Shown: in pieces, positions 2,286 through 5,917 of the stretch
How the letters are laid out: every line of letters starts with the position of its first letter
Position numbering within the stretch: the stretch's first letter is position 1
Assembly (NCBI GenBank): GCA_015200345.1
Contig: CP054187.1
Span: forward strand, 1,844,470 to 1,908,469
Origin: Planctomycetia bacterium
GTDB taxonomy: Bacteria > Planctomycetota > Phycisphaerae > UBA1845 > UTPLA1
Direction: 5' to 3'
Length of the DNA stretch: 64,000 bases
Notes under the pieces: model-generated
What the model was told of the DNA's origin: nothing
What the model saw: only the letters and a program-made list of their open reading frames with translations
Database searches by the model: none
Translations under genes and position numbers: made by a program

Positions 2286-2798
2286 ATGGAAACACTCCTC
2301 ACCTGCCCCAAGTTCTCCGTCGTACGCAAATCCGTGCGCGGACGCGATGGCCGGGACCATCTGCGAGAGATCGTCGTGCATCCCGGCGCGGTCGTCGTGC
2401 TGCCGCTGCTGGACGACGGACGCTGCCTGATGCTGCGGCACGTTCGGCCGTCGGTCGACAAGGTGCTGTGGGAGCTACCGGCCGGAACGCTGGACAAGCC
2501 GGGCGAGGAGCCGGAGTCGGCCGCGGCGCGCGAGGTGGAAGAGGAGACGGGTCACCGCGCCGGGCGAATTGAGCAACTTTGCGAGTTCCACCCGTCGCCG
2601 GGGATCTTGAGCGAGTTGATTCGTGCGTACGTCGCGCGCGATCTGTCGCCGACGCGGCAGAATCTCGATGCCGGCGAAGACCTGGACGTCGTGCCGACGC
2701 CGGTGGATGATGCCATAAAAATGGCACTCGACGGGCGCATCATCGACGCGAAAACGATCATCACGCTGCTGGTCTGGAACGGAAGGGGGCGGCCATGA
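2286..2798 (+). CDS. Nudix hydrolase (ADP-ribose pyrophosphatase-like)
   Basis: Hydrolyses a nucleoside diphosphate linked to another moiety; the sugar-nucleotide or ADP-ribose subclass is likely from overall layout. The Nudix box GX5EX7REUXEEXGU is complete: G of GTLDKPGEE, then AAREVEEETGH, so the metal-binding glutamates are present. A QLCEFHPSPG-like segment follows, where ADP-ribose pyrophosphatases carry a conserved aromatic/proline loop. The 170-aa length is normal. Its stop overlaps the next start by four bases (ATGA), indicating translational coupling with the rhomboid gene. Confidence 0.88.
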   Translation: METLLTCPKFSVVRKSVRGRDGRDHLREIVVHPGAVVVLPLLDDGRCLMLRHVRPSVDKVLWELPAGTLDKPGEEPESAAAREVEEETGHRAGRIEQLCEFHPSPGILSELIRAYVARDLSPTRQNLDAGEDLDVVPTPVDDAIKMALDGRIIDAKTIITLLVWNGRGRP

Positions 2799-3661
2799 GC
2801 TGGGAGCATCGGGATTACGCGTACGATTCCGATTCGCCGCAATCGGGAGGTCTCCGCAGTTGGTTCGGCGGCCTGCCCGCACCGGGTCGCACGATCAAAT
2901 GGATCATGGGCGCCAACATCGCCCTGTGGATGCTTTGCCTTTTTACCGGCGGCGATCGCAGTCCAGTCTTTCAATCCCTGTCAATGCGGACGGACCTGGT
3001 CTTGCAGGGGCAAGTCTGGCGGCTCGTAACGTTCACCTACCTGCATGATCCGCAGGGTTTGGGCCACGTGTTCTTCAACATGCTCGGTCTTTACTTTCTG
3101 GGCATGTACCTGGAGCGAGACCTGGGACCAAAGCGGTTCTTCCGTTTTTATACATTTGGTGGCGTGTTTGCGGTCGCCCTCTACCTGCTTCTTACATCGG
3201 TGAACTGGATCGCGCGCGAAGCGACCCTCGTCGGCGCATCCGGCAACGTTCTGGCCGTGCTCGGCGCCTGCGCCGTGCGCTATCCCGGCATTCGGTTGAT
3301 TCTCGTGCTTTTCCCCGTGCCCATTCGTACGGCCGTGCTGATCTTCACCGTTCTGTACGCCTTCAACCTGTTCACGCGCGGATCAAACGCGGGCGGCGAT
3401 GCGTGCCACCTCGCCGGCATGGCGTTCGGCGTGGCCTGGGGCTATCGCGGAGCGAGCTGGTCGCGCCGCTGGTCACACTGGAAGGAGCGTCGGGAGCGGA
3501 ACGCGTACGAGGCCCGGCGCCGCGCCGCGGCATCGCTTCAGGTAGAAGTCGATCGCATCCTGGAAAAGGTCCACCAGAATGGGATTCAAAGCCTGACCGA
3601 GCGGGAGAAGAAGACCCTCGCCGACGCGACGCACAAGCAGCAGGCGACGGGGCGACGATGA
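2795..3661 (+). CDS. Rhomboid-family intramembrane serine protease
   Basis: Integral membrane protease of about six transmembrane helices that cleaves substrates within the bilayer. The catalytic serine lies in the GASGN motif (LVGASGNVLAVLGA) and the partner histidine in GGDACHLAGMAFG, in the expected order and spacing. The Lx-HxxxxHxxxN-type region appears as DPQGLGHVFFNMLGLYFLG. A charged cytoplasmic tail of ~70 residues rich in Glu/Arg/Lys follows the last helix. The length is 288 aa. It overlaps the Nudix gene by 4 bp and is followed after 114 bases by the SelW-like selenoprotein. Confidence 0.92.
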   Translation: MSWEHRDYAYDSDSPQSGGLRSWFGGLPAPGRTIKWIMGANIALWMLCLFTGGDRSPVFQSLSMRTDLVLQGQVWRLVTFTYLHDPQGLGHVFFNMLGLYFLGMYLERDLGPKRFFRFYTFGGVFAVALYLLLTSVNWIAREATLVGASGNVLAVLGACAVRYPGIRLILVLFPVPIRTAVLIFTVLYAFNLFTRGSNAGGDACHLAGMAFGVAWGYRGASWSRRWSHWKERRERNAYEARRRAAASLQVEVDRILEKVHQNGIQSLTEREKKTLADATHKQQATGRR

Positions 3662-3775
3662 AATTGATTTTCGCGGCGGCCATGCCTACGCTGTAAGGGC
3701 CGCGCGACCGATCGGGCGAGCGCGCTGGACCCCGAGTTCGGCGGTTCTTAACCACGCATCACACGGAGGCACGCA

Positions 3776-4018
3776 ATGAAGATTCACATTACCTACTGCC
3801 AGCAGTGAAACTACTTGCCCCAAGCCACCGGTCTGGTGGCCGAACTGACGCAGAAATACGGCAAGGACAAAGTCACATGCGAACTCACCCCCGGCGGTGG
3901 AGGTGTCTTCGACGTGACGCTCGACGGCAAATTGATCTTCAGCAAGAAGCAGGTCGGGCGATTCCCCACCTACGGCGAAATCCCGCTGGCGATCGACCAG
4001 AATCTGGCAAATCGCTAG
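3776..4018 (+). CDS. SelW/Rdx-family selenoprotein with in-frame UGA (selenocysteine)
   Basis: From ATG 3776 (GGAGG ribosome-binding site at 3765-3769) the frame reads MKIHITYCQQ, then TGA at 3806-3808, then NYLPQATGLVAELTQKYG and continues openly to TAG at 4016-4018, 80 residues in all. Reading the TGA as selenocysteine gives CQQU after a first beta strand, exactly the CxxU redox motif of SelW/SelT/SelH (Rdx, thioredoxin-like fold) proteins. GGGGVFDVTLDGKLIFSKK and GRFPTYGEI match the rest of that family, including the conserved G-x-FDV-x-x-dGk-lfSK stretch. A SECIS-like hairpin follows the TGA. The role is probably thiol/selenol redox. A standard gene caller would split or miss it. Confidence 0.88.
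3806..3840 (+). promoter_or_regulatory. Bacterial SECIS-like element
   Basis: Directly after the in-frame TGA (3806-3808) is a perfect 6-bp stem, GCCACC (3824-3829) with GGTGGC (3835-3840), closing a five-base loop GGTCT (3830-3834). A short apical stem with a loop beginning GG, within about 16-37 bases of the UGA, is the known bacterial SECIS pattern recognised by SelB. The loop is 21 bases from the UGA and matches the GGUCU loop of E. coli fdhF. Confidence 0.8.
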
Positions 4019-4034
4019 AACCGGTTTCAACACT

Positions 4035-4057
4035 CCTCTCCCCCTCTGGGGGAGAGG
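4035..4057. repeat. Perfect 10-bp inverted repeat (REP-like hairpin)
   Basis: CCTCTCCCCC (4035-4044) and GGGGGAGAGG (4048-4057) form a stem with a three-base loop, between the convergent selenoprotein gene and the SPFH gene. No T-tract follows on either strand, so it resembles the dispersed C/G-rich REP-type palindromes of GC-rich genomes more than a classical terminator. Confidence 0.55.
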
Positions 4058-4147
4058 TCGGGTGAGGGGGAAAAGCGGTTCGTACGAAACGTTTCACCCT
4101 CGCTCCATCCCTCGCCCCGGAAGGCAGAGGAAGCATTGGAACAACTT

Positions 4148-5917
4148 CTAGGCAAGCAGCATCGCCGCGTCCTGAATCGTGTTGCCGCACAACTGGCCCA
4201 CCGGAACAATGGCCGCAGGCGACTGCGGCTCGCTGGGCCGCCATAATAGTAATCTGTCGCGATTGTCGTTCACCGCCGCGATCCAATCATCCGCCGCCCA
4301 CGCCCAGCGAAGCGGCACCGCCGCCCGATATTCCCCGCGATAGGCATCGCCGATCACCAGCAAATCCAGCACCGGGCGGCGATCCGCCGCCAGCAGCCGC
4401 GCGATCCCTCCCCCCGGCAGCCAGTGCAGCGATTCCACGGCGTGACCCGTCGGACCGCGCAGCTCCGCCAGATCGTGCGGCGCGCGCGTCGGCCAGCGCA
4501 GCAGACGCCCGTCTTTCAGCCCCGCAAAGACCCAGCCCTCTGCGACGCACAGCGCCGTCACTTCCGCCGGCGCGGTCAGCAGCACCGGCGCTTCGGCGGA
4601 ATCGGGCCGCCAGCCGGCGACGCGGGAATCAATCGAAAACCAGATCGCGCCCGCGCCATCGCACTGCACGTCGCGCACGCTCTTCGCGCCAACGGTCAAC
4701 TGCTCGAGGCACGCCGTGCCATCGTCGGCCGCCGCCGCGCCGCCGGACTCTCCCGGTGCGGCGTGCACCGCCCATCGCCGCAGCCCGGCCTCGGAATGCG
4801 TCGCATAGAGCCGCTCGCCGAGCAGAACAGCCGCGTTCACGCCGCCGCGCGGCGATGCGGGTTGGTCAAACGCAAACTGGCGCGTCAGGCTGAATTCGCC
4901 ATTCAGCAAGTACACACCACGCCGCGCGCCAACAAGCACCGTGCGCGCACCGACGGATTCCATCACCCGCACCGAACGCAATGGGCCGATGTCACCCTCG
5001 AGCCGCCGCCGCCACGCCAGTTGATGCGGCGACGCCGGATCGACCGCCAGCAACTCATCTCCCGCGACGAGCAGGATCAGCGCCGTTCGGCGCGACGCGG
5101 GCTGCGCCAGCAAGCCGGCATAGAGCTGGGCGCGCTGGCCGGCGTCAAACGTGCGAATCAATTCCGCGACGCGCGCCTCGCCCGATTCCCCCGCCATCGC
5201 GCGGACCTTGTCGAGCATGGAGGCCAGCGACGCCAGATGCGCCTCCCGCGAAGCTGCCGCCATCTTCCGCAGAGACGCTTCTTCTTCGAGTCGTTGACGG
5301 CGCTGCTCGGCGAAGCGCTCATCGTGCCGAGCGGCCTCAAACGCGCTGGACGCGAACTCCACCCGCACGTCGGCACACAGGCCCAGCCCGCTCGAAAAGC
5401 CGAACGGCTTGAACCGCTCGGCGAGCGCGGCATCGAATGCTTCCCATGTGGCGACGCTCGCCAGTTCCGCGGCGGTCCGCGTGCCGGCGAAGTCGGCTGC
5501 TTCACGCCGCACGACTTCCTCGCAATGGCGTTGCAATTGGTCGAGCGTGACGCGCTCACCGCTGCCGACGACGGCGCGGTGGAACGACGCCAACTCGTCG
5601 CGATGCGGCACTAGCTGCACGCGCAGATGAACCTTCGCGATGAAATCGAATCCGTCCGAGGACGGCAGACCGCGAAACTCGAACGTCAACGGAAGCGGAT
5701 CGGTCCGCGCGATCAGGATGCGCCGCCAGCGGCCGCTCTCGATCTCCGCACCGGCTCGCAGTAATTCAGGTTGATCCCCGTCCGCCCACGCCAGCGCCAG
5801 GCACGACGCCGGCACGGTGACGCGCCGGGAGAGAAGCGGAAAAACATCCGATGCGAACGTGACGGCCGCGACCGCTTGCGGATCGCGCGTGAACCTGTCC
5901 AGATCGAATCGTGGCAT
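4148..5917 (-). CDS. SPFH/Band-7-like domain fused to a C-terminal beta-propeller
   Basis: A 589-aa protein, last gene of the ESCRT-like block. Residues ~15-190 follow the SPFH/Band-7 plan: RRVTVPASCLALAWADG and AGAEIESGRW opening strands, SSDGFDFIAKVHLRVQLV, then a helical part around LQRHCEEVVRREAADF and LAERFKPFGFSSGLGL. Residues ~205-250 are a charged coiled coil (ERFAEQRRQRLEEEASLRK). From ~275 onward, repeated strand patterns (LILLVAGDELLAVDP, GARTVLVGARRGVYLLNG, GAIWFSIDSRVAGW, GWVFAGLKDGRLLRW) indicate a WD40-like propeller. No signal peptide or membrane helix is evident. SPFH proteins scaffold membrane microdomains; here a membrane-docking or recruitment platform for the neighbouring AAA/Snf7 proteins is inferred. 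Confidence 0.7.
   Translation of the reverse strand: MPRFDLDRFTRDPQAVAAVTFASDVFPLLSRRVTVPASCLALAWADGDQPELLRAGAEIESGRWRRILIARTDPLPLTFEFRGLPSSDGFDFIAKVHLRVQLVPHRDELASFHRAVVGSGERVTLDQLQRHCEEVVRREAADFAGTRTAAELASVATWEAFDAALAERFKPFGFSSGLGLCADVRVEFASSAFEAARHDERFAEQRRQRLEEEASLRKMAAASREAHLASLASMLDKVRAMAGESGEARVAELIRTFDAGQRAQLYAGLLAQPASRRTALILLVAGDELLAVDPASPHQLAWRRRLEGDIGPLRSVRVMESVGARTVLVGARRGVYLLNGEFSLTRQFAFDQPASPRGGVNAAVLLGERLYATHSEAGLRRWAVHAAPGESGGAAAADDGTACLEQLTVGAKSVRDVQCDGAGAIWFSIDSRVAGWRPDSAEAPVLLTAPAEVTALCVAEGWVFAGLKDGRLLRWPTRAPHDLAELRGPTGHAVESLHWLPGGGIARLLAADRRPVLDLLVIGDAYRGEYRAAVPLRWAWAADDWIAAVNDNRDRLLLWRPSEPQSPAAIVPVGQLCGNTIQDAAMLLA

Follow-up and report, generated by a model that had tools for sequence, protein, structure and literature searches.

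The question raised by this locus is whether a TGA triplet, lying in frame within what otherwise reads as a short planctomycete gene, stops translation or encodes selenocysteine (Sec). The locus is part of a 64,000-nt stretch of DNA (hereafter the window) from a 3.88-Mb genome assembled as a single contig. Our answer is that the gene almost certainly encodes a thioredoxin-like selenoprotein of the SelW/Rdx family, whose UGA at 3806-3808 is decoded as Sec via SelB and a hairpin with a GGUCU loop. For this gene the reading frame, the UGA, the family, the fold, the machinery, the conservation and the stem covariation were computed; the positions are collected in Table 1.

Table 1. Features of the SelW locus (window coordinates) and further genes with an in-frame TGA in the same genome
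Feature	Position	Strand	Remarks
SelW-like (Rdx family) selenoprotein gene	3776..4018	+	80 aa, Sec = residue 11; from frame, profile matches, relatives and model
In-frame UGA, predicted to be read as selenocysteine, CQQU motif	3806..3808	+	TGA in 127/127 fetched homologous stretches
Shine-Dalgarno-like GGAGG	3765..3769	+	6 nt before ATG; read from sequence
Predicted bacterial SECIS hairpin	3824..3840	+	Stem 3824-3829 / 3835-3840, loop GGUCU 3830-3834
Five further in-frame TGA genes, outside the window	L019:1531; L152 1770; L154:1603; L170 1530; L171 1620	- for L152, L170 and L171	SelD GUAGK; peroxiredoxin-like HWUPVC; TlpA/thioredoxin-like VKUGPC; two AhpD-like CHYU

Reading frame, family and fold

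The frame runs from an ATG (3776-3778) to a TAG (4016-4018) and is interrupted only once, by the TGA at 3806-3808. If TGA is translated as U, the product is MKIHITYCQQUNYLPQATGLVAELTQKYGKDKVTCELTPGGGGVFDVTLDGKLIFSKKQVGRFPTYGEIPLAIDQNLANR, and the CQQU motif occupies residues 8-11, with its Cys codon at 3797-3799. The preliminary description had claimed an in-frame UGA at the redox position of a CxxU motif, flanked by family-like sequence on both sides; the translation, the Rdx profile match and the homologues confirm the former, and the profile and structure comparisons bear out the latter. The read-through protein matches the Pfam family Rdx (PF10262) with an E-value of 9.6e-21 and 74.2 bits (curated cut-off 22.6), as well as NF041051, the NCBIfam model dedicated to SelT/SelW/SelH (seleno)proteins, with 94.5 bits (cut-off 88). 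In a six-frame search of the genome itself, the Rdx match crosses the TGA with 66.2 bits.

The structural comparisons point in the same direction. A phmmer search against the PDB matched bacterial SelW-family chains and mouse SelW, and an AlphaFold2 model built from 33 sequences reached a pLDDT of 95, displaying a thioredoxin-like fold in which strand 1 is followed by C8-x-x-U11 and then by a helix at residues 14-28. The best Foldseek hits of this model were the SelW-family structures 2fa8, 2obk and 2oka (TM about 0.86), followed by MIEN1, mouse SelW and thioredoxins. C8 and position 11 are invariant in the alignment of SelW homologues (A1). Membership of the SelW/Rdx family, with its thioredoxin-like fold, is thus confirmed.

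As had been predicted, stop-limited ORF calling recovers only the part after the TGA, a 67-residue frame (3815-4018) that starts from TTG. This ORF does exist, and one could argue that it is the true product; however, a protein starting there would be missing both strand 1 of the Rdx fold and the CxxU motif, codons 1-10 of the full gene are conserved and family-like, and GGAGG precedes the ATG at 3776 by 6 nt. We consider it very improbable that translation begins at TTG 3815.

Conservation of the UGA among relatives

Rdx is present in 92 of 150 related genomes. All matches that span the motif contain a single internal TGA and are otherwise free of stops; only one match, a partial one in G016 whose start lies past the motif, fails to cover it. 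From 130 homologous stretches fetched, 127 (120 distinct) could be aligned by motif search, and the codon at the motif position is TGA in all 127, never TAA or TAG. They come from Planctomycetota, from Myxococcales (Plesiocystis, Enhygromyxa, Nannocystis) and from MAGs labelled KSB1, Deltaproteobacteria and Gammaproteobacteria, so close and distant relatives alike run through the UGA and do not end at it.

These data also bear on the reading that the TGA is a premature stop, by mutation or sequencing error, in a broken Cys-type SelW gene. The failure of mechanical ORF calling to find anything but the part after the stop is what a pseudogene would give, but the same TGA recurs in all the aligned stretches, which come from different phyla and from assemblies made independently, and the frame is intact before and after the codon. 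Conservation in independent genomes refutes the pseudogene, to which we assign a negligible probability.

SelW also co-occurs with selA. Among relatives at least 90% complete and at most 5% contaminated, 55 have both Rdx and selA, 1 has Rdx only, 10 have selA only and 30 have neither (Fisher p 3e-15, phylogeny ignored). The Rdx-only genome (G075, 98% completeness) carries a SelW gene with UGA and gave no selA match; since this genome is assembled into about 210 contigs, the absence may reflect an assembly gap, or alternatively a different selA. We tentatively speculate, though we rather doubt it, that SelW exists in this planctomycete order as an obligate selenoprotein, with no Cys form and only in genomes that have the Sec machinery. 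If so, it may be among the genes that help to keep the Sec trait in these lineages.

The downstream hairpin and the selenocysteine machinery

A hairpin with the stem GCCACC/GGTGGC and the loop GGTCT lies just 3' of the UGA, with the stem starting 15 nt and the loop 21 nt from it. The claim that this is a SECIS-like element held with regard to the loop and its distance from the UGA, and gained from the covariation across relatives, but as a single sequence the hairpin is weak evidence: its z-score is -0.46 over 61 nt, which is not beyond chance, and synonymous recoding of the sequence yields an equally good energy in 11% of cases and an equally long stem in 19%.

The relatives are far more informative. 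In those that share the peptide ATGLVA, the wobble bases of the Ala and Val codons always pair (15/15 distinct sequences), through the codon pairs GCC/GTG, GCG/GTC, GCG/GTT and GCT/GTA; only 8e-5 of shuffles, which ignore relatedness, match this. The Thr/Leu stem pair shows one switch, from ACC/CTG to ACG/CTC. When the loop encodes Gly, the codon is GGT in 66/66 cases, as compared with 117 of the 803 Gly codons found in other parts of these genes; when it encodes the alternative Ser, the codon is AGT in 61/61. In a 14-sequence stem alignment 97.6% of the cells are paired, against 19-58% in slid controls, and 11 two-sided changes were observed where 2.5 were expected from shuffles that ignore relatedness. 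Because the stem changes are compensatory and often synonymous, and because the loop codon is invariantly GGT or AGT, these sequence comparisons clearly argue for a genuine bacterial SECIS kept by selection across relatives. Through these synonymous compensatory changes, the related SelW genes document a bacterial SECIS with unusual clarity.

Sec machinery had been predicted to lie outside the window, and a search of the genome located it. The genome contains a tRNA-Sec (73.7 bits, anticodon UCA), a SelB of 657 aa with an EF-Tu-like GTPase and SelB winged-helix domains, selA (517.5 bits) directly 3' of selB, the two frames overlapping by a few bases, and selD (374.2 bits), which has a UGA of its own within NCAGUAGK. 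Family searches, by which alone further selenoproteins were sought, returned five genes besides SelW with an in-frame TGA at a redox position (Table 1). SECIS-like hairpins were seen at several of the five. A search of the genome for a Sec-type FdhA found none (no match over the cut-off, no internal stops). Counting SelW, the six in-frame-UGA redox genes equal the published threshold for a 'selenoprotein-rich' organism (PMC5029168). The organism is a selenium user, and with at least six such genes UGA should not simply be taken as a stop when this genome is annotated. When the entire window was scanned by codon usage for UGA-interrupted genes, SelW was recovered, although not as the top-scoring candidate; the other 19 candidates have flanks that look like frames antisense to known ORFs or like the normal ends of genes.

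The frame is open whatever the TGA encodes, and one might therefore suppose that it specifies another amino acid (a Trp or Gly code) or is passed by general readthrough, with neither SECIS nor SelB; yet tRNA-Sec, SelA, SelB and SelD are all there, the UGA residue is the catalytic position of CxxU, the genome's TGA-bearing frames fall on redox active-site positions and the hairpin 3' of the UGA covaries, so we give this reading hardly any credence.

On the Sec reading, and by analogy with the established mechanism of bacterial Sec insertion, SelA and SelD would make the Sec-tRNA, and the ribosome would not terminate at 3806-3808. Instead, SelB carrying Sec-tRNA(UCA) would bind the GGUCU-loop hairpin in the mRNA just downstream and deliver selenocysteine, so that a redox centre of the CxxU type would form where strand 1 passes into helix 1. 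Judging from its family, the protein is probably a thiol/selenol oxidoreductase that would form a Cys-Sec selenenylsulfide while reducing a thiol-disulfide or peroxide partner.

Gene neighbourhood and comparison with known systems

The neighbourhood of the SelW gene among relatives gave no functional link; the only neighbour kept beside it, in a few close relatives, is the convergent gene at 4148-5917. A few side observations can be added. A rhomboid protease gene lies at 2795-3661, between a NUDIX gene and SelW, and in a genome of the same genus (G001) its place is taken by an M50 gene of the site-2-protease type (L046:347-1381). The M50 protein and the rhomboid share the first residues MSWEHR and a DUF6576 tail that is 76% identical over 59 aa. 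In other relatives (L174, L189, L199) rhomboid and M50 genes with DUF6576 seem to be direct neighbours, so recombination between the shared ends may have removed one member of a tandem pair of intramembrane proteases. Just past the SelW stop, at 4047-4069, there is a copy of the dispersed palindromic repeat TGGGGGAGAGGTCGGGTGAGGGG, which has about 50 genome copies at up to 3 mismatches (reversed control 0) and looks like a REP-type element.

It is useful to compare the locus with known systems. In the SECIS of E. coli fdhF, some 20 nt separate the UGA from an apical GGUCU loop; the SelW hairpin shares both this loop and the spacing. The difference is that the hairpin described here is a perfect 6-bp stem with a 5-nt loop, for which the UGA-containing lower stem is not predicted. 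The Rdx structures 2fa8, 2obk, 2oka and 2p0g share the fold at 29-36% identity, but the present protein has selenocysteine as the second redox residue of its CxxC/U motif. Mouse SelW (2npb) shares the family, the fold (TM 0.65) and CxxU, whereas its eukaryotic SECIS is in the 3' UTR (PMC1088965) and the one described here is inside the coding region.

Bacterial SelW-like selenoproteins were reported in 2005 (PMC1088965), and few Cys homologues in Sec-using organisms were noted in 2006 (PMC1794560). In the Global Ocean Sampling set no selenoprotein family is larger than that of the SelW-like proteins, which comprises 427 Sec forms with CxxU, compared with 56 Cys homologues (PMC2398784). Planctomycete selenoproteins were described in 2016 (PMC4807772), and our literature search did not find a study of SelW in Phycisphaerae. 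With the SelW-like proteins of the Sargasso Sea and Global Ocean Sampling sets (PMC1088965, PMC2398784) the present gene shares the short Rdx protein, the CxxU motif and a SECIS that directly follows it and has a conserved G in its small loop. There is no difference of kind; here the host is a planctomycete and the gene is Sec-only in all relatives examined. The SelW gene is real but ordinary: its family has long been known (PMC1088965, PMC2398784), and what is known of that family is unchanged.
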